A stretch of DNA of 49,593 nt from a virus, in IMG/VR virus record IMGVR_UViG_3300032174_000010, positions 1 to 49,593 of that record; one strand, given 5' to 3'. This document shows, piece after piece, positions 31,822 through 49,593 of the stretch (position 1 is the first letter of the stretch; each line of letters opens with the position of its first letter). The notes below the pieces were generated by a model. The model saw nothing but the letters and a program-made list of their open reading frames with translations, was not told where the DNA came from and made no database searches. The position numbers and the translations under genes were made by a program.

Positions 31822-34800
31822 TCAATGGTTCACTATAGCTGATCCGGGAAGAATAATCCCGCCTTGCGTAATGATGACTGCTGGGGCCGTTGGGGGCGGT
31901 GGAGGCCCAAGGAAAGCAGCCGTCGCCGCTACCGGGGAGCTTCCCATTGTGAAACTACACGTCGCCCCGCTGCATATCCCACTCCATGTCACGAAGGTGA
32001 AACCTCCGTTCGGAGTTTCGGAAAGCGTAATAGGCGTCCCGTTTGTGAAGTTCGCCGTGCAGGTTCCGGGGCAACTGATCCCCGCAGGGGCGCTAGTAAT
32101 AGTTCCCCCGCCAGTGGGAGTAATGGTCACCGTAACCGAGTTTGTAGCCACGGGCGCGAAAGTGGCAGTCACGGACACGGGAGAGCTTCCCATTGTCAGC
32201 CCACAGCCTCCAGAACCGCCGCAAACCCCACCCCAGCCGACGAAGGTATTGCCGATAGCGGGAGTTTCGGTCAGCACAATGGGTGTGCCATTCGTGAAAC
32301 TTGCTGAACATATAGGAGTACAGGCGATTCCCGCAGGGCTAGACGTGACTGATCCTGAACCTGTAATGGAAACCGTTAAGATTCCAGAAGATGTACCCGG
32401 CGCTGGGTTCCCGGCCAAAACTGAGGCTAAAGTCGTGAGATTTGCACCCGGATCACTGCCGTCGTTCGCCGCACCTTTGCAGGCCCCCGCCGCAATCGTG
32501 TAGTCTCCTCCGTTGCCGGAATTGTAGTTGTTGAACACCGCCGTATAGTTCGCTACCGATGTCGTGTTGCCTCCCGGCCAAGTGTGCGAACCGTTATTTA
32601 CAAAGCAGTTTCCGGTAAAGACGTAGTTTGTCCAGCAGGCGTTAATCATCGGCAAACCTACGCCGATGCCGTTAGCGCAATTCAAGGGCTGAGAGCCGCC
32701 GATCAGATTGAGTGTACCGCCATAGGTCTGAACAACGTTATTTGTGAAGGTTTCATTGTACTGATTCATTCCGCTAGCGATCGTGGGATTCGTCAAGCCG
32801 AGCACGGAATTCGGTGTTGCCGCTGGGACATAGACCCAAGTGTTGTGATTCACAGAGACATCATGCTGTGTCTGGGCAGCACTTGTAATTCCGACGTTGG
32901 TGGTCATCTGCACTATAGGATTTGACGTTGGGCAGGTGGGCTGGCAATAACCCATATTGTCCGCCACATTGTCATGGATGCTGTAGTGATTATGCCCCGC
33001 CGCAATGAACCCCCCATTGCTGGCCATGTCCAGTTCTGCAAAGAAGTTGATGCTGTTGCAGGTGTTGTAACGGGCCGTGAAGTCTGTCACGACGGCGGTC
33101 GGAGATAGGCCAGATTGATTGACTGGGGTAATGGCCCAGCACTCTCCGCCTTGAGAAAATCCGCCCCAGTTGTTCTGGAAAGTGTTTCCTTCAAGCAGAA
33201 CTTTCGAGGCGTTCTTTAACTCGAACAGATTCTTAACGACGTAAGCATGACCACCCACTCCGCCGTCATAACACCCCGCCGAGGGATTCCAGCACGGGTT
33301 CTTAAAGAAGGTGTTGAGGCGAATCTCCAAGTTGTTGGGGGTTGTGTTCGTCCCGCCACCACCGTGCAGCATGTTCTCGCCTGCTGATTCGTCGAAGTTG
33401 TTGACGTACTTCAAAACGTTCTCTGTGACGGAATTGGTGATATTCACACCGCCAAAGAACATGTGGGAGTCCGTGCAATGCCCGGTGGAAGAGATGCAGT
33501 AGAAGTTGTTCCCGTAGTTGTCAGTCGCCGCTACATAGGAAGTTGCGCTGTTCGAGAAGGCTAGGTTAGTTTCGTCCTGCTGTTCGTTGCCGTGCATCCA
33601 GTTGCGGTCAAAGATGATATGGTCTATGTTTCCGATATTCCCCAGTCCAATCAAGGCACCCACAAGGCCCGTTCCATTAGCGCGGGTAATCTCTAATCCC
33701 ATGACGCGCACACCGGAAGTTCCGGTAGTAAAGGTTAGAGCCGGAGATGTATTTGGGGTGATGATCTGGGCTGTATACGTCCCCGGAGTTCCGGGGCAGG
33801 CGTAAGCAGGGCGATTCGGCAAACTGGTTACACCTGAATAGCATGGGCTGGTACGAACACCTTCAGATGGAAGACTCGCCAAACCAGATGTAGTGATCCA
33901 GAGATAATTATTGGCAGCACAGTGAACGGCTGGAACGGTGAAGTTTCCCGAAAATACATTGCCTGCCTGTAAGGTAATCTGCTGTCCACACGCAGCCGCA
34001 GCCAATGCGGTTGTCAACTGCCCTGCGGTGGTCACATTAACCACAGCCCCCGGAGCAGGGGTATTCGCCGTTGCCGTGTTATAGCAGGCCGTGGGAAGAT
34101 TTGCGGGGCCATCGGTCGCTGGCCATGTCGGGATTCCGGTGGATGGACAGTAGATATTGTCTCCGCCAGTCCCTACTGAAATCTGCTGCAAGAGAATCGG
34201 CTTCCAGCCTACCGAGGCCACTCCGCTTGAAAGACTTGTCACAGTTCCAGTGAGGTCAGTTGCCTTTGTGTAGAGTGCGCTAAAGGTCTGATTTGCGGGG
34301 GCCACACAACACGGCTGGGAATATTTGGATGTGTCCCAGACAATCAATTCGGTGATGCCGCCCTTGGTAAGGCCCATCTCGTAGAGATTTCCTACTAGAG
34401 TCAAAGGTGAAGTGATGGTCGCTCCAGTGAGCCATCCTGCCATTGTGTCCCAAGCCGTGCCTTGTAATGTACTATTAAGGCCGATGGTCGCAGTGTCCCA
34501 CTGATACCAATAGAGCTGTGTCACCCCAAGAGAGGCGACAAAGGCTTCCTTCTGGGCGACATAAGCCGAATAACCGTCCGTGTTGCCTCCGCCTTCCGTA
34601 GTCGAGTTGTAGCCGTCTTCATCGTCAAAGATAACGGTCGGATTCGGCAAAGAGTCGTTGGCGATTTCCGTTTGAGTATTCGTGATGGCCGTGATCGTCG
34701 CTGCCGGGTTCCAATTGCCTGCGACGTTCGGATAAGCTACCTGCGTTCCTCTGGCATGGACGTTGACATAATCATAGGTCTGTTTTCCAGTTACCGACTG

Positions 34801-36333
34801 CGATGCGATGACCGGACACCCTAGAGGATACCCGTTGACTCCGGGATTCATCGCAGGGGCCGTGATCGTCGTGATGTTATAGTTATGGAACCACGTTAAG
34901 GCCGTGCCCACATGGAAAGAAGGAGAAAGAATCTTTGCTCCGGGATCAACGCAGGCTGCAATCTTCTTCAGGTTCCAGCCCATTAAGACCAAATTGTTCA
35001 ATGAAGGAACATTAGCATGGAGAGCAGGGTTATTTGCACTCCCCGAACCGCCGCAAGCCGTATTGTCATTCCAGCACCAGAAGTTAGAAGAATCTGCCTC
35101 GTTCCAAATTTCGTAGTAGCGAGTCCCGGCAAAGGTCTTGTAGCGCGTAATCACGTCCGCAGCGAAGGTAGAATATTCGACATCCGTTCCCGTGCCGTCT
35201 CCGTGCAAACTTGCAGGTGCCGTACAGGAATACTGAGTATTTGGGGAAGCGCAGTTGTTCGCAGCAATCGCTCCTGCCGATGCCCATTGTGGAGTATCCC
35301 CAAAGGTGTAGATGAATGCCATCGGAGTTCCCGGACACGGTGCGCCGATGGCAATGTTCTCTCCTGCTTGTGTGTTGTTTCCTCCGGCGCGGGTGTTGAT
35401 GTGATTGTCTAAGCCCGTGAAGGTAGGGGCTGTATTCGAGGTCTGAATCTGTCCCCATTTCTGCCCGTCATCCCAGATGCGATACCCGTAAATCTGCGCC
35501 GCAACGTTGTTACCATCCTTCGGGCACCAAGGACTACTGCCTTGATTGAACCCGGCATTGAACAATGTAGGCAGCGGATTCAGGGTGTCGTAGCCAGTCA
35601 GCGAGGCTTCGTCAATGTACTCGGTCAGCATTCCGCCGCTACCGTTGGTATCCAATTGGAAGTTTAGTCCCGTTTGGTCAGAGAATGATCCCGGAAGAAT
35701 TCCAGCAGGGTAGGTTGTATTGATAGCATATGCCGTACCGTCCACCGTTAAAGTGTCGTAATACATGCAAGGGTGGCCTTGGCAAGCTGTCTCTCCTGCA
35801 ATTCTATGTACGTCCCAAACAATGTGGTGGAACGTGTTTAGCGGCAGCGTGCAGGTTACGCTCGTGTCATGCCATGCCCCGTGCAGAGAGTCCCAAATCT
35901 GCCACTTTCCTCCGATGTGACACTGCGAACCGAACATGAATTCATCAAGTGAGGCATGGATATATTGGTAAGTGTCGAACTCCGCATCATTCAACCCTGA
36001 GCCTGTAATCTCAATTTGATAATCAGCATGAAAACGAATGGCCGTATTGTGTGCCCCACCTTGATAGTAGCAGAGGAAATCAGCAAATGCTGTTCCAGTA
36101 AAACCGCAGGAGATAGAAGCCCCATCAAGCGAGGGTGAGGCGTTGTTGATGGTCTGTACAGGACTAGAAACGGAACCCGATCCTCCCGGGGAGCAAGAGT
36201 GAACTCCAGAACCACCCTGATAACAGTAATTCCACGGAGTCACAGTTGTGTCGTCAACGGCTTGATTGTCGAACACCTGCGCTAGTGCGGGGAGAGCGCA
36301 GAGCACGAGGGCGAGAAGAAGGTATCGCTTCAT
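31822..36333 (-). CDS. Giant secreted multidomain protein, likely glycan-active fibre/depolymerase
   Basis: The 1503-residue protein begins with a Sec signal peptide (MKRYLLLALVLCALPALAQ). Residues about 20-250 are a beta-sandwich with lectin-like strands; about 255-690 carry YYEIWNEADSSNF (about 405-420, Asn-Glu pair of clan A glycoside hydrolases) and VIFDDEDGYNS; about 750-1270 form Asn-rich parallel beta-helix repeats as in pectate lyases; about 1310-1480 contain two InlB-type repeats (TFVGWGG, TFVTWSG). It probably binds and degrades a surface polysaccharide. A signal peptide on a virion protein would be odd; it may instead be exported from the infected cell. Confidence 0.7.
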   Translation of the reverse strand: MKRYLLLALVLCALPALAQVFDNQAVDDTTVTPWNYCYQGGSGVHSCSPGGSGSVSSPVQTINNASPSLDGASISCGFTGTAFADFLCYYQGGAHNTAIRFHADYQIEITGSGLNDAEFDTYQYIHASLDEFMFGSQCHIGGKWQIWDSLHGAWHDTSVTCTLPLNTFHHIVWDVHRIAGETACQGHPCMYYDTLTVDGTAYAINTTYPAGILPGSFSDQTGLNFQLDTNGSGGMLTEYIDEASLTGYDTLNPLPTLFNAGFNQGSSPWCPKDGNNVAAQIYGYRIWDDGQKWGQIQTSNTAPTFTGLDNHINTRAGGNNTQAGENIAIGAPCPGTPMAFIYTFGDTPQWASAGAIAANNCASPNTQYSCTAPASLHGDGTGTDVEYSTFAADVITRYKTFAGTRYYEIWNEADSSNFWCWNDNTACGGSGSANNPALHANVPSLNNLVLMGWNLKKIAACVDPGAKILSPSFHVGTALTWFHNYNITTITAPAMNPGVNGYPLGCPVIASQSVTGKQTYDYVNVHARGTQVAYPNVAGNWNPAATITAITNTQTEIANDSLPNPTVIFDDEDGYNSTTEGGGNTDGYSAYVAQKEAFVASLGVTQLYWYQWDTATIGLNSTLQGTAWDTMAGWLTGATITSPLTLVGNLYEMGLTKGGITELIVWDTSKYSQPCCVAPANQTFSALYTKATDLTGTVTSLSSGVASVGWKPILLQQISVGTGGDNIYCPSTGIPTWPATDGPANLPTACYNTATANTPAPGAVVNVTTAGQLTTALAAAACGQQITLQAGNVFSGNFTVPAVHCAANNYLWITTSGLASLPSEGVRTSPCYSGVTSLPNRPAYACPGTPGTYTAQIITPNTSPALTFTTGTSGVRVMGLEITRANGTGLVGALIGLGNIGNIDHIIFDRNWMHGNEQQDETNLAFSNSATSYVAATDNYGNNFYCISSTGHCTDSHMFFGGVNITNSVTENVLKYVNNFDESAGENMLHGGGGTNTTPNNLEIRLNTFFKNPCWNPSAGCYDGGVGGHAYVVKNLFELKNASKVLLEGNTFQNNWGGFSQGGECWAITPVNQSGLSPTAVVTDFTARYNTCNSINFFAELDMASNGGFIAAGHNHYSIHDNVADNMGYCQPTCPTSNPIVQMTTNVGITSAAQTQHDVSVNHNTWVYVPAATPNSVLGLTNPTIASGMNQYNETFTNNVVQTYGGTLNLIGGSQPLNCANGIGVGLPMINACWTNYVFTGNCFVNNGSHTWPGGNTTSVANYTAVFNNYNSGNGGDYTIAAGACKGAANDGSDPGANLTTLASVLAGNPAPGTSSGILTVSITGSGSVTSSPAGIACTPICSASFTNGTPIVLTETPAIGNTFVGWGGVCGGSGGCGLTMGSSPVSVTATFAPVATNSVTVTITPTGGGTITSAPAGISCPGTCTANFTNGTPITLSETPNGGFTFVTWSGICSGATCSFTMGSSPVAATAAFLGPPPPPTAPAVIITQGGIILPGSAIVNH

Positions 36334-37910
36334 TTCAGCGTAATGGTTGCCCAGTAGTCCGTAGCCGAAACCGCATTTGCGGTATTCTTATTGTCGCCTA
36401 CCCAGAAAGGCATTATCTTAATGACGGACGTAGCAGGTAAGTTCGTGATTATAGGACACTTCAACGCACCGTCAATGAAGAAGTTTGCAGTTGTTCCGTC
36501 ATAAGTAAACTCAAACAAATGTGCAGTGGTGGTATCTGGAGTAACACCCGTATCGCAAGTGGATTGCGACCCTCCTGTTGTCTGCGCCGTCCCAACCCAG
36601 TGTGTATCGGTAGATGCTGAATATCGAAATGCAATTGTTGAGCGGTTCGGCGTGTCTGTGGCAAAACTAGTAGTATTGAAAACAGAAGCCGTCTCTCCTC
36701 CTGTCCCGCCTGTGTCAAATTTGGTAAAACCCATCCAATAGCGGACATTTGTGGTCTGGCCGGGGGTGAACAATAATCCCCAGCGATAGAACACTCCGAA
36801 CCCGTACTCGCCAAAGTTGGCCCCTACGCCGAAATTAACCCCGATGACGGTACTAGTTGAAGCTGAGGCAGATGATGTGCAGGTTTCGCTAGCGGCGTGG
36901 GTAGAAGTTGGAAAGTTTATGACACAGGAACCGCCAGTCGATAAACTGTTTGACGTTCCGAAACCAGTATTCGCTCCATAGATGGGAGATGTTCCACTTA
37001 CTTTAGTGTGGTATGCCGTGACGCTCAGGCGGGACGTTCCCTGAGAAGTTTCCCAGTTTCCGCTGCCATTCACATTATATTGTAGGGCGTCCCCAGTCTG
37101 CGGATTTGGCGGCGCTAGAATACCCCCGCTGGGAGTTGTGTAGGTTCCGATTCCATTTAAAAAATGTGCCGAATTCCCATCGCCTACAATAGCTGCGCTC
37201 ACGCTATCTGTGCCAGCGGCAGTACTCTTTGCCCAAATAACATTTAGGCCGTTTGTCGGTGCAGTGGGGGTGGTATTGTTGAAATTTACTGTGTCGCCAA
37301 TAGTCAAGGCCACTCCCGCGATTTGAAGGGCATAGCTCAACGATGCGGGCGTGATGAAGTTCCAAGGAATGCAAGTGACGGATGATCCCGTACACGGAGC
37401 GGGTGTGCCAAAGCTAGAAATCTGCCCTGCTGCCGGTGGGGTAGCATTGGGAACCAAAACATAACTCGCCGCAGAACTTGAATTAAATCCGATGATGCCG
37501 AACATTCCCGTGGACGGAATTGTAGTAGGCGGTAGACTATTTCCAGCAGCCGTGAATCCACCCGCATGGTTCCCGTCATTTTGGGTACTTACTGTCCCAA
37601 AGAACAATGAATTTATCCCAGAGAAGTTGGCAGGTGCACAGCCGAGAGTTGATGTTCCAATCCAGCCAGAAAAGTTGTTGGGAGTGCAGTTCCCAGTGAG
37701 TGTTCCGTTCCCTCCGCCTCCACTTCCAAAGTTGCATGGCGCTCCATGAAATAAGCAGTTGCCGTTGATGTCGAGATTCTGCACGAAGGCGTTCCATCGC
37801 TGGTTAGAGTGGCCGAGATTTAGACCTGTGCTGGCTGGCAAAATATCGGTATTGACCTGTTGCGCGAAACAAGGGACGGCCAACAATAAAATGAGGAGCA
37901 ATCGCTTCAC
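36330..37910 (-). CDS. Fibre-like protein with Sec signal peptide (526 aa)
   Basis: A signal peptide (MKRLLLILLLAVPCFAQQ) is followed by NTDILPASTGLNLGHSNQRW, a module also seen in the fibre at 44524-45723 but there without signal peptide. The middle is Gly/Thr/Asn-rich beta repeats and the end (HLFEFTYDGTTANFFIDGAL) looks like a concanavalin-type domain. A four-base overlap couples it to the giant protein. Confidence 0.65.
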   Translation of the reverse strand: MKRLLLILLLAVPCFAQQVNTDILPASTGLNLGHSNQRWNAFVQNLDINGNCLFHGAPCNFGSGGGGNGTLTGNCTPNNFSGWIGTSTLGCAPANFSGINSLFFGTVSTQNDGNHAGGFTAAGNSLPPTTIPSTGMFGIIGFNSSSAASYVLVPNATPPAAGQISSFGTPAPCTGSSVTCIPWNFITPASLSYALQIAGVALTIGDTVNFNNTTPTAPTNGLNVIWAKSTAAGTDSVSAAIVGDGNSAHFLNGIGTYTTPSGGILAPPNPQTGDALQYNVNGSGNWETSQGTSRLSVTAYHTKVSGTSPIYGANTGFGTSNSLSTGGSCVINFPTSTHAASETCTSSASASTSTVIGVNFGVGANFGEYGFGVFYRWGLLFTPGQTTNVRYWMGFTKFDTGGTGGETASVFNTTSFATDTPNRSTIAFRYSASTDTHWVGTAQTTGGSQSTCDTGVTPDTTTAHLFEFTYDGTTANFFIDGALKCPIITNLPATSVIKIMPFWVGDNKNTANAVSATDYWATITLK

Positions 37911-40608: not shown

Positions 40609-41262
40609 CTAGAACGGATTTGCTGTTGGAATCGCCATACCGACTCCGCCAAGCGCAGCCGTGCCCAGCCCTTTACCTAAAGCTCCGCCCAATCCGGTCG
40701 TAAAAGCATTTCCGAAACCCTGATTTGCAGCCGTGATATACGAATTCAATGCGCTCGATGCGCCTGCTCCCGCCACACCCTGAGTTCCCGTAAGAGTTGC
40801 GGCGTTCCCGCTCAATAGATTGCCAGCATTGAACTTGTTGGTATTGGCTAATAGTGCATTCTGTATGTCGATCCCCGTCAAAGTTTGGGATTGGGCCTGC
40901 GCTCTGCCGCCAAGCAATTCTGCGATGCCTTTGGCGTAGTCGCCGCCTACGGGTTGACCTCCCGTGTTACCGCGTGCTCCCAGCGCTTCTCTTACCTGCT
41001 GGCCTGCCTGATTGAAGGTGCTGCTAACCGTATTCAGCCCCGCCGCTTTCATGGCTGCTAGGGTTGCGGGATCAAAGCCGATATTGCCCGTTGTATACTT
41101 TGAAAATGCCGCTTTTAAGTCTGCAATCTGCTGCTGCTGCGTGGCGAAGGCTTGCTTCTGCATCGCCAGTTCATCCTTGCGTTGTTGATTGGCAGTATCT
41201 GATCCCTTGCCGCCAGAGACAGTGCGGAATTCCAGAGCGATGAGTGCCCATGCCTTTATCAT
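40609..41262 (-). CDS. Internal virion protein (217 aa)
   Basis: An N-terminal coiled coil (ELAMQKQAFATQQQQIADLK) leads into Ala/Gly-rich helices and a low-complexity glycine-rich C-terminus (GLGGALGKGLGTAALGGVGM). This is typical of small ejection proteins that insert in membranes. It overlaps the next gene by four bases. Confidence 0.55.
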   Translation of the reverse strand: MIKAWALIALEFRTVSGGKGSDTANQQRKDELAMQKQAFATQQQQIADLKAAFSKYTTGNIGFDPATLAAMKAAGLNTVSSTFNQAGQQVREALGARGNTGGQPVGGDYAKGIAELLGGRAQAQSQTLTGIDIQNALLANTNKFNAGNLLSGNAATLTGTQGVAGAGASSALNSYITAANQGFGNAFTTGLGGALGKGLGTAALGGVGMAIPTANPF

Positions 41263-41672
41263 CCGAGTCTCTTTCGGTAAACCTTGAACTTCATTTCCTC
41301 GAAGCCCAACTTCTCAGCACCTGCCGCCGTCACATCATCGCTGGCAAGAAAGTACAACTCCCTCATTCCATTGGCATAAGCCATTAAAGCAGCACCCTTA
41401 CACATCTCCATAACGCCGGAAGCAACCTGTAGCGGACTAGCATCAGGATTGGGGCCAATCGACTCCAGCATCGCAGCGCCTTGCACAGGCATGTAGGCAT
41501 AGACGGTTCCATTCGTGTGCGCGGCCAAAACCTTTGTGGAAGGATAGGTAAGAACGTCCCGGTCAAAAGCGTTGCGCTGGGAATTAGCTTGGCACCAGTC
41601 GATGACGGGTTCTGTCTCTGGGTCGGCCAGCCTTACATCCACTCGATTACGGATTTGCTCTCCGATGCTCAT
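41259..41672 (-). CDS. GNAT-like acetyltransferase-type protein (137 aa)
   Basis: The pattern VYAYMPVQGAAMLESIGPNP, then KGAALMAYANGMRELYFLAS and AEKLGFEEMKFKVYRKRL resembles the last strands and helix of a GNAT fold. The acetyl-CoA pyrophosphate loop is not recognisable, so activity is doubtful. GNAT-like folds occur in virion gene clusters of podoviruses without known substrate. Confidence 0.55.
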   Translation of the reverse strand: MSIGEQIRNRVDVRLADPETEPVIDWCQANSQRNAFDRDVLTYPSTKVLAAHTNGTVYAYMPVQGAAMLESIGPNPDASPLQVASGVMEMCKGAALMAYANGMRELYFLASDDVTAAGAEKLGFEEMKFKVYRKRLG

Positions 41673-42694
41673 ATCAAAGGCTTTATATTGTGCGATAGAA
41701 ACCCGTTAGCCCAGAATAGATGCCCTTTCTCCATAAGCACTTTATGCTTCGAGCACTTCCGATGAAAGAATTTTCTGACCGTGATCTCCTGTTCTCCGAT
41801 GTCTGTGATGACCAAATCTCCTTCGGTCAACTCGTCTGCCCTCACCTTTCCTCTTTCGGCATGATACAACGGGTGGTCATAAGTGCAACATAATTCACGC
41901 CCATCCTCAATGCGAAGCTGAACCCACTGGGTTTCCGGTAGGACTTCCAGACTGAAAGGCAAGTCCCCCAGCGCAACAATGTCGGTTCCGCTCATTACGC
42001 AGGCATGACCTCCACCCCCTCCGCCTCCTGCCCCTCCGCCTCCACTTCCCGCTGCCGTTGTAGCTGCCGTCATAAACCCTGTGCTTAAAGGCTCATTTGA
42101 TTGAAGGGTCTGCTGCATAGCATAGAATGGGGCATTCACGAGATCAGTTGTGTCCGCCACGACAAAGGCAATCTGTGGACTTCCGGTAGTACCTTGCACC
42201 CAACCGATATTGCAGAGGTTGTTAATATTCCAAAAGGGCAGGAAATAGTATGTCGTCGCTGCCGCCAATCCTGAAATGGTCAAACCTGAGCCTGCGGTTG
42301 GGACGGTGAACCGTGAACCATCCGCTCTTGTGATTACTGGCACATGAGAGCCGTTAGTCCCGTCCCAGAACCAAGTGATTGAACCTGTATCCGAAGTGTA
42401 GGCAAAGCCGGAGGTATTCGCCGCGATGGACGATCCGCCAATCTTGCGGATCAGGACTTTGCTGATGTCGATAGACTGCTTCCCATTTAAGGGGTTAGTG
42501 TAGAGAATATCCTGCGGAAGTCTTGTAAATGTCCCAGAAGTAGGCCGAAGACCGCCCCTCTGAAACCTCTGCGTTCCCTTTTCAAGTCTTTGCACCCTGC
42601 CGAATCCGGGAGGAACCGTTGCATAGAATCCGGGGTAGATAGCAGTCCCTTGGCGTTCAGGAACAGGCATTAGTTTTCCCGGCTGTTTCGGCAT
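41669..42694 (-). CDS. Virion protein with FN3-like and C-terminal Hint (intein-like) domains
   Basis: The N-terminal 200 residues include an FN3-like segment (SGLTISGLAAATTYYFLPFW). A Gly-rich linker (GGGGGGG, about 222-229) leads to a Hint domain: Cys232 in HACVMSGTDIV, TYDH (271-274), and the end EKGHLFWANGFLSHN (322-336) with His335-Asn336. The residue after Asn336 is Ile, not Cys/Ser/Thr, and only IKPLI follows, so protein splicing is impossible but autocleavage is conceivable. Its genes lie between the nozzle and ejection genes. Confidence 0.82.
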   Translation of the reverse strand: MPKQPGKLMPVPERQGTAIYPGFYATVPPGFGRVQRLEKGTQRFQRGGLRPTSGTFTRLPQDILYTNPLNGKQSIDISKVLIRKIGGSSIAANTSGFAYTSDTGSITWFWDGTNGSHVPVITRADGSRFTVPTAGSGLTISGLAAATTYYFLPFWNINNLCNIGWVQGTTGSPQIAFVVADTTDLVNAPFYAMQQTLQSNEPLSTGFMTAATTAAGSGGGGAGGGGGGGHACVMSGTDIVALGDLPFSLEVLPETQWVQLRIEDGRELCCTYDHPLYHAERGKVRADELTEGDLVITDIGEQEITVRKFFHRKCSKHKVLMEKGHLFWANGFLSHNIKPLI

Positions 42695-44523
42695 TATCCT
42701 CCTGCGGGATGAAAGCCCATATCTAGATTGTAAAGATGGAACTGCTTACCGCCTGCCCAAATCATCTTTAGCGAAACATACGCCGCCGATTCAGGAGTGG
42801 CAGGATAGCGCCAACTCTGAAGAAACTGCCCTTGATGGGCAAGTAGGGGCGATGGTTCCTGTCCCGGCGTAAGGTCTTCGTAAGTCCCTTGCGTTGGATC
42901 ATCGTCCACCAGTTGCAAAACCTGCGACGGCGGTACAGAGTCAGTCTTGATTTCTGTCCAATCATGCGTTCCCTGCCACGAGGGATTGCCATCCGGGGTG
43001 ACGGGAAAGAGATTTGTCTGGGCGGTGGAAGAATAATCGTTCCCGTCATCACCATAAGTTCCTGCTGTTAGCTTGAGGACTTTGGTCTGATTTCGCGCAA
43101 GTACGAGATCAACCACTCCAAGGGATGTCTCCCCGCTTGCCAAAGCCGATGCAGTCGTACCCACAGTCCACGGCGGGAGCCAATGCTGCAAATCCAGATC
43201 GTACACATAGAGAATGCCGTTTGAACCGTCGAGCACTACAACCCAGTGGTACGTCCCGGAAATGTGGATCGTGATCCAGCAAGTTAAGGGATTGATCTTT
43301 TGCGTATCGGGCCGGATCGGAATGCCTATTTCTCCCAAATCAGAAAGCCAAATCGTATTTGACGTGTCGAGCCAAACTACAGAACCTCCAAGTGCCGCTA
43401 CGCTCGTTCGGCTCCTAGTTCCTCGTTTCTGAAGCAGGGTATAGCGCCGAAAAGTATCAAGAGAATCTCCTTCCACTTTCTCGATCTTCTGTGGAAGTAG
43501 AACGGCAATCCCGTCAATCAAAGGGGCTTGCCCTCCCACTTCATCTGACCATGGATAAAAGTTCCCTGTCAGACCTGAAGGCCAGCACTCTTCGGGGACT
43601 CCATTGGCTATTTCCTCAAAACCGGAATAAAACGTCGTGTTGTTTAGAAACCCCCATATTCTACCCCCGTAAGTGATGAAGCCCTTAGTTGGCGGAGGTG
43701 GATCATTACGAAAGAACTCTGGGGCTACGCGGATCGAAAGGTTAACATCCAAAGTTGAATCAGTCACATTCCCAGTGACGTTAGGGAATGGAGAGCCTGT
43801 AATCTCCTGCATCAAGGCCGGGTCTTGCGCCCCACCGTCAGGAGTGCGGTAAACCCGGATTCCAGTCACGCGGGGATTTGTAGAAGCCACGAGAGGAAGT
43901 TGCACGTTCTTATTCTGAAATATTCCCGAGCAAGTCGAGATGCCAGAAGGCGAGGATTCGTGACTATCATTGGCATCCCAGTAGGTCGAGCAGTAACAGA
44001 AAGATGTATATGCACTCAAGACCCCAACCACTAAGGTGGGCGCTCCCATTGCAGGCGGTGCGACAATACCCCACGTCTTCAGGGTCTGGCTGTCCCACTT
44101 TCGCATGTCCGTGCCATTGCCGAAGAACAGAGTATTGTTGGAAACTACGAAGTCGAACGGCTCTGCGGAAGTCGAAGTGAACAGAAGCTGGGCCTGAGTG
44201 TCAGTTCCCAGTTGCAATTTGTAGACCTTCGCTACTCCGCCCGTGACATCGCAGAACATCCAAATAAAGGCTCCGCCGTTAGGCGAACTCCCAACCCATC
44301 TACGCCATTGAAATGCCCGTTGCAGGTTCTTGAATGACGAGACTGCCGTTTCGAGGGTAGTAGAGAAGCCCGGTCGGTTCTCTGACCAGTTCCGCAGAGA
44401 GGTCAGGATATTGTTAGAACCTTGCAGGAAGTGCGGGTCAGTTGAAGTCAGGGAAGCATTCGAGATGTAAGGTAGGGCCGTATTGGTAACTATGCGGTGC
44501 TCAGTTCTCGATGCTGGGGGCAA
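42694..44523 (-). CDS. Tail nozzle/beta-propeller protein (609 aa)
   Basis: Repeated blade-like motifs (GGAFIWMFCDV, PFDFVVSNNTLFFGNGTDMR, GFITYGGRIWGFLNNTTFYS) suggest a beta-propeller as in podoviral nozzle proteins (T7 gp12 or P22 gp10 type). The length is in the usual range. It is next to the fibre and adaptor genes. It would close the tail below the adaptor ring. Confidence 0.68.
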   Translation of the reverse strand: MPPASRTEHRIVTNTALPYISNASLTSTDPHFLQGSNNILTSLRNWSENRPGFSTTLETAVSSFKNLQRAFQWRRWVGSSPNGGAFIWMFCDVTGGVAKVYKLQLGTDTQAQLLFTSTSAEPFDFVVSNNTLFFGNGTDMRKWDSQTLKTWGIVAPPAMGAPTLVVGVLSAYTSFCYCSTYWDANDSHESSPSGISTCSGIFQNKNVQLPLVASTNPRVTGIRVYRTPDGGAQDPALMQEITGSPFPNVTGNVTDSTLDVNLSIRVAPEFFRNDPPPPTKGFITYGGRIWGFLNNTTFYSGFEEIANGVPEECWPSGLTGNFYPWSDEVGGQAPLIDGIAVLLPQKIEKVEGDSLDTFRRYTLLQKRGTRSRTSVAALGGSVVWLDTSNTIWLSDLGEIGIPIRPDTQKINPLTCWITIHISGTYHWVVVLDGSNGILYVYDLDLQHWLPPWTVGTTASALASGETSLGVVDLVLARNQTKVLKLTAGTYGDDGNDYSSTAQTNLFPVTPDGNPSWQGTHDWTEIKTDSVPPSQVLQLVDDDPTQGTYEDLTPGQEPSPLLAHQGQFLQSWRYPATPESAAYVSLKMIWAGGKQFHLYNLDMGFHPAGG

Positions 44524-49079: not shown

Positions 49080-49593
49080 TTAAACAAGTGACGCATCTGC
49101 TGTGATAATTTTGAATCTTAAATTCGTGGTGTCGAGCGTTTTCGCCGCGAACACAAACCGATAACTGACATAGCTGGCAATCTCGCCAACCGGATCAGCA
49201 GGGGATGGCCCGCCCTTGACCATATTCAAAGTGAATCTCTGCTTCCGGGGATCAACCACCTGATCTGGGCCTTTGCCAGTCAGGTTGATGATTCCGATTC
49301 CACCCGAACCCATGATGTAGGTCGAGTACAGAACGTTCGGAGCGGTTCCTGAAGTGCCGACATTGGTCGATGTCAGCAGGCGGCACATGCCAATTTCCCC
49401 GACCTCCCCCTGAAGCACCTGACGGCCTGCCATGTATTTCAAGGCGTCAATGAAGCCTCCGGCAGTGTTGTCGGAAATCAGGTCATAGACGACGTAGGGG
49501 TGAATGACAGAGAAGAAGTAGTTGTCGAACCTTGGGCGTACATTAATGCCCAAAAGCAACGCGACATTGGACTTAAAGTCTGCCGCCGAGAGA
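49080..49593 (-). CDS. Major capsid protein, N4-gp56 family (C-terminal part)
   Basis: This is the 3' part of the capsid gene that begins at 684 (or 549) and crosses the circle junction. The segment HPYVVYDLISDNTAGGFIDA, followed by GEVGEIGMCRLLTSTNV, is the C-terminal signature of the N4-gp56 capsid family (Y-D-L region, then E-I-G-x-x-R-x-x-x-T-x-N). The end (RFKIITADASLV) is intact. Bases 49467-49593 duplicate 1-127. Confidence 0.9.
   Translation of the reverse strand, partial: LSAADFKSNVALLLGINVRPRFDNYFFSVIHPYVVYDLISDNTAGGFIDALKYMAGRQVLQGEVGEIGMCRLLTSTNVGTSGTAPNVLYSTYIMGSGGIGIINLTGKGPDQVVDPRKQRFTLNMVKGGPSPADPVGEIASYVSYRFVFAAKTLDTTNLRFKIITADASLV
49467..49593. repeat. Terminal direct repeat, right copy
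   Basis: These 127 bases are identical to 1-127; see the left copy. The true genome length is therefore about 49,466 bases. Confidence 0.95.

Follow-up and report, generated by a model that had tools for sequence, protein, structure and literature searches.

The window (the whole 49,593-nucleotide stretch of viral DNA that was analysed, from a soil phage) carries on its minus strand a late block with a terminase, a portal/head-tail adaptor and, at 49080–49559, a weak match to a major head protein. The same block includes a 341-aa open reading frame that runs on the minus strand from 42694 to 41669, the plus-strand reading of 41669–42694 being full of stops, and that ends in a Hint domain. The features at this locus, with the grounds for each, are the following:

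41669–42694, minus strand: gene of the 341-aa predicted virion protein with a C-terminal Hint (open frame and translation; homologues)
42047–42694, minus strand: N-terminal part, residues 1–216 (66% identity to L001)
Within residues 1–216, minus strand: FN3-like domain, residues ~95–210, TWFWDGTNG...TTYYFLPFW (fold neighbours and weak Pfam matches)
42002–42046, minus strand: Gly-rich linker, residues 217–231, SGGGGAGGGGGGGHA (translation; a Gly-rich linker in the family members read)
41687–42001, minus strand: Hint domain, Cys232–Asn336, 105 aa (sequence, profile and fold matches; catalytic Cys232, Thr271/His274, His335 and Asn336)
41672–41686, minus strand: C-flank IKPLI, five residues (I337–I341), without Cys/Ser/Thr at +1 (translation)
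42694–44523, minus strand: 609-aa structural protein, directly upstream, a conserved neighbour (beta-propeller/nozzle-like by eye)
41259–41672, minus strand: 137-aa gene, downstream, overlapping the stop codon of the Hint gene (ATGA) and acetyltransferase-like by eye only

The polyglycine linker, GSGGGGAGGGGGGGHA, has Ala231 as its last residue and is followed in order by CVMSGTD, TYDH and ANGFLSHN, and then by IKPLI and the stop. The sequence-only reading had placed intein blocks after this linker, and Cys232, T271-Y-D-H274 and A329-NGFLSHN336 are all present in the translation; it had also noted the lack of a +1 nucleophile, and Ile337 indeed follows Asn336, with five residues in all before the stop. 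Its assignment of a C-terminal Hint was backed by phmmer, profile and fold matches. The window protein matched the NrdJ-1 intein by phmmer (E = 1.4e-8), and a five-sequence profile matched NrdJ-1 (1e-8), gp41-1 (8e-6), T. thermophila BIL2 (1.3e-4) and a C. thermocellum BIL (5.9e-4), in addition to PhoCDC21-1 and VidaL. An AlphaFold model of the 341-aa protein, made from a 17-sequence alignment (pLDDT 59.9 overall and ~75–87 over most of the Hint), found inteins, BILs or Hedgehog proteins in all of its best 50 PDB fold matches, headed by the Tetrahymena BUBL1 BIL2 domain (1.1e-5). Residues 232–336 are a real, unusually short Hint domain, matched far above chance, and the NrdJ-1 alignment makes it ~30 residues shorter than typical mini-inteins from block A to block B. 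Its score with Pfam Intein_splicing was 18.6 bits versus a cut-off of 35.8 bits, and the NCBIfam score was also below its cut-off, which means that the Hint would escape automatic annotation. Pfam Hint_2, searched against the window, gave no passing match, the domain lying below the curated cut-offs. A split intein or a second Hint in the window was ruled out, as there was a single Hint match in the whole record.

The arrangement of an FN3-like domain, a Gly-rich linker, a Hint and a 4–9-residue tail was found in 14 other viral contigs and ~15 Acidobacteriota prophage-like genes (with the window, 15 viral contigs and ~15 genomes, each counted once), and the tail kept this length in all Hint-bearing family members. 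Group I includes L001 (68% identity), L004, L006, L007 and L008. Group II is formed by genes from both Acidobacteriota assemblies and viral contigs, and in one acidobacterial order 15 of the 95 genomes have near-full-length copies; the AlphaFold model of a group-II protein was poor (pLDDT 53.5) and was set aside. In the four cases of group III (L023, L208, L210 and L211), the FN3-Gly-Hint module closes long tail proteins at their C-terminus: L023 (1410 aa) matched PF13550 (1.6e-23) and also J-like tail families, and the other three are similar to it in size and layout. The same ending was seen on the unrelated or distant scaffolds L038, L039 and L056, the last with ANGFLSHN followed by KLMLL, and a terminase with a full intein (L010) was rejected as a relative. 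No relatives of the whole 341-aa protein were detected in the phage and plasmid collections. Among the fold matches, A0A6J5NYB8 is labelled 'Fibronectin type III', and public viral proteins of similar shape may exist. When poly-Gly followed by C-x-x-G-T was tried as a marker, 81 translated matches were obtained in viral contigs and the Hint was present in none of the 81, so a Gly-rich run before a Cys means nothing alone. Gly-rich proteins with GGGGGxCxxGT (L062–L141) are very common in viral contigs, with no Hint in those read.

Several bacterial copies are broken by in-frame TAG, frameshifts or a linker deletion (L027/L048, L054, L055/L058), as expected of decaying prophage genes. In G002, a major-head-like gene and the Hint cassette lie amid bacterial-looking genes, and a prophage-type terminase (query L216:7632-9197) was present in 49 of the 95 genomes of the acidobacterial order of G002 (L031, L214, L215), mostly at one locus each; a fixed or domesticated prophage is possible in this order.

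Only four Hint columns, those of Cys232, His274, His335 and Asn336, are invariant in alignment A6 (17 rows, 26–69% identity to the window protein). At +1, all of group II has Tyr; the residues in the other members are I, N, F, I, K, L, V, L and G. Within the family, Thr was found at this position in L208 only, where TPHE replaces TxxH and the usual His is missing; it also occurs in the unrelated L039. As a yardstick, viral Hints were collected through the ANGF(L/F)SHN motif: those with a long C-flank have C, S or T at +1, except L184/L194/L203 (K), and the sole short-tailed one is the family member L197 (= L006), with Ile. The tail is unconstrained and not conserved in group I, and reads Y-[TN]-F-[STN]-S in the intact copies of group II. 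Median dN/dS values in group II (Nei-Gojobori), rough because synonymous sites are near saturation, were 0.15 for the N-part, 0.045 for the linker, 0.13 for the Hint and 0.075 for the tail. The catalytic residues, the Gly linker and the absence of a good +1 nucleophile are conserved family-wide.

Regarding the context, the 609-aa upstream protein gave weak matches to phrog_8040 (head closure Hc3, 8e-6) and phrog_511 (internal virion protein, 4.6e-3), and its homologues stand directly upstream of the Hint gene in L001, L004, L006 and L007. The 137-aa downstream protein had no Pfam match, and counterparts of its gene stand downstream in relatives, most of which, the Hint-less L018 included, have one with the module. 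The label of virion protein given in the first reading is backed by the late-block position, by the adjoining structural gene and by the fusion to a tail-tip J-like protein in relatives; from gene position and relatives, we infer that the 341-aa protein is a virion component. The small and the acetyltransferase-like neighbour genes were dropped as Hint partners, since Hint-less homologues (L018, L021) have them too.

Two other proteins of the virion block, large and fibre-like (31822–36333 and 36330–37910, both on the minus strand), show apparent N-terminal Sec signal peptides, MKRYLLLALVLCALPALA followed by QVF and MKRLLLILLLAVPCFA followed by QQV (by eye only), which is unusual for phage structural proteins. 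Apparent signals were likewise seen by eye in L001 (11720-15160), L015 (6944-7681), L019 (4447-6051), L021 (6106-8229) and L023 (5087-6406).

Five homologues have no Hint (L018, L019, L021, L212 and L213), four of them ending in a Gly-rich stretch. In these four, the FN3-like domain is followed only by the Gly-rich stretch and a few more residues, the C-termini being GGFGGKGRFA (L018), GAFGTGGRLV (L019), TGLGGTLRKV (L021) and SGTGGGSGGSGGGHQIF, with GGGHQIF at its end (L212), whereas L213 has another domain in place of the Hint. With most of them ending at the Gly-rich stretch, the Hint-less homologues look like the processed form that would be expected of a Hint precursor. The tree of the FN3 part required two or three label changes in most bootstrap replicates, and a single Hint origin remains compatible with it.

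Fold, sequence, the block A Cys232 and the block B T271-Y-D-H274 all assign the domain to the Hint superfamily. Type A BILs end in His-Asn, are without a +1 nucleophile and mostly cleave (PMC4031507). In the window protein, the H335-N336 end is present and the +1 nucleophile absent (Thr in one family member, L208), and with the type A BILs of C. thermocellum (2lwy) and Magnetospirillum the domain shares the Hint fold, Cys1, TxxH, the His-Asn end and the lack of Cys/Ser/Thr at +1. Structure 2lwy is also the only convincing PDB sequence match of group II (E = 0.004) and a fold match of the window model (3.8e-5). Group II is nearer in sequence to the type A BIL (2lwy only), whereas group I, shorter (105 aa) than type A BILs, is nearer to the phage-type mini-inteins NrdJ-1 and gp41-1. 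Moreover, unlike the BILs described so far, which belong to variable regions of bacterial proteins, the Hint is here the last domain of a predicted phage tail/neck protein, between a Gly-rich linker and a 4–9-residue tail.

NrdJ-1 and gp41-1 are true inteins, each with a nucleophile at +1 and a C-extein. Although they are the closest sequences (1e-8 and 8e-6), the Cys/Ser/Thr at +1 and the functional C-extein of a class 1 intein are replaced in the window protein by Ile337 and a tail of only five residues. In Tetrahymena BUBL1 BIL2 (6tmm, 6y75), the Hint is also downstream of a domain, which BIL2 conjugates through its C-terminal end, but there, in a ciliate polyubiquitin locus, ubiquitin-like domains flank it on both sides, whereas in the phage only a short peptide comes after the Hint. 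In Hedgehog proteins, too, a Hint at the C-terminus (Hog) detaches from the partner on its N-terminal side by way of a thioester. Hog, however, lacks the His-Asn end and works with cholesterol and a sterol-recognition region, for which the five residues after the phage Hint leave no place, and the Hog structures 6tyy and 1at0 rank low among the fold matches. Finally, phage tail spikes have auto-cleaving C-terminal chaperones of the Peptidase_S74 type. They resemble the phage Hint in their C-terminal place and in the expected self-removal from a tail protein, but their fold and chemistry are unrelated, and no S74 match appeared in the Pfam scans.

The Hint identity, the recurrent architecture, the invariant catalytic residues, the purifying selection, the Hint-less homologues, the tail-tip fusion in relatives and the precedent of the type A BILs make it fairly probable that the window encodes a phage neck/tail protein with a built-in autoprocessing Hint, similar to the A-type BILs, at its C-terminus, which would remove itself. 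In this reading, a retired intein probably serves the phage for trimming the end of one of its tail proteins or for attaching it. The conserved residues fit an N-S acyl shift and an Asn cyclisation, and self-cleavage at the N-terminal side of the Hint, the C-terminal side or both is likely. The precursor would join or fold with a virion part, and Cys232, helped by Thr271/His274, would attack the preceding peptide bond, leaving the Gly-rich end as a thioester. Asn336, helped by His335, would cyclise and cut off the five-residue tail. Because there is no +1 nucleophile, the thioester would mainly be hydrolysed or taken by an amine, so that the Hint would leave and the structural part would keep a Gly-rich C-terminus. 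Against self-processing, the short span from block A to block B could weaken the N-terminal step, the Hint-less homologues show that the module can work without a Hint, and L208 is without the usual TxxH His. We judged self-removal with hydrolysis the likeliest outcome, followed by ligation to an amine, weak splicing and inactivity.

Ligation would mean that a lysine or N-terminal amine, on a neighbouring virion protein or on the host surface, takes over the thioester at the Gly-rich end, which we regard as rather unlikely. The best PDB fold match of the model, BUBL1 BIL2, is itself a Lys-conjugating domain, which makes isopeptide bonds with Lys acceptors and conjugates its ubiquitin-like domain to lysines without ATP (PMC8616854). 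The layout is as in BUBL1, with a domain and its flexible Gly-rich end before the Hint, and the Gly linker is strongly conserved in group II (dN/dS 0.045). However, the conserved downstream neighbours are also found beside the Hint-less L018 and L021, and four Hint-less homologues have a normal carboxyl end, so ligation would be dispensable. The specific form of this proposal, in which BIL chemistry would be put to phage-specific use as an ATP-free ligase and an isopeptide bond would weld the Gly-rich end of the tail protein to either a neighbouring virion protein or the host envelope at the tail tip, seems unlikely.

The first reading overstated the case in saying that splicing cannot occur: type A BILs, which also lack a +1 nucleophile, can ligate their flanks weakly, the amine of the freed C-flank attacking the thioester (PMC4031507). 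Here, cyclisation of Asn336 would free the tail (IKPLI; YTFSS in group II), whose amine would attack the thioester to join linker and tail, and the Hint would have been inserted like an intein a few residues ahead of the former stop codon. A class 1 intein sits at a conserved site, with intein-free homologues of its host protein; here, Hint-less homologues do exist (L018, L019, L021, L212), but the insertion would have to fall just those few residues before the stop. Their C-termini, where a short tail of comparable length (HQIF, GRFA, GRLV, LRKV) closes the Gly-rich stretch, and the purifying selection on the group II tail (dN/dS 0.075) favour weak splicing. On the other hand, the group I tail is not conserved, conserved tails could equally serve catalysis, and a Magnetospirillum BIL with Tyr at +1 showed no splicing until this Tyr was changed to Cys (PMC4031507), so that we consider weak splicing quite unlikely. 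An inactive Hint, either the remnant of a dead intein or a domain kept as a folded, non-cleaving cap, could be suspected from the shortened N-terminal half and the missing +1 nucleophile but is very unlikely, as a dead domain would not keep Cys1, the block-B His and His-Asn as its sole invariants at 26–69% identity, with a dN/dS of 0.13.

Phage inteins have usually been treated as parasites of replication and packaging enzymes. A search of open-access papers for Hints or BILs in structural proteins of phages brought up nothing but inteins, in terminase, ribonucleotide reductase and similar proteins. A BIL-like Hint is known in kind; as far as those papers show, the place is new and the use likely new, although similar sequences may already sit in databases. 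What the family presents is a Hint without a splicing partner, kept under selection as the last domain of predicted virion proteins on at least three scaffolds: a podovirus-type neck gene, an acidobacterial prophage gene and a siphovirus tail-tip protein. A Hint that cuts would serve phage tails as a maturation device and be a compact (105 aa) cleavage tag, and one that ligates would weld proteins without ATP during virion assembly or attachment.

In addition to this family, L184, L194 and L203 encode another phage protein with an internal Hint that ends in ANGFLSHN, has Lys at +1 and is followed by ~200 residues, which from its sequence is a further candidate BIL in a phage protein.
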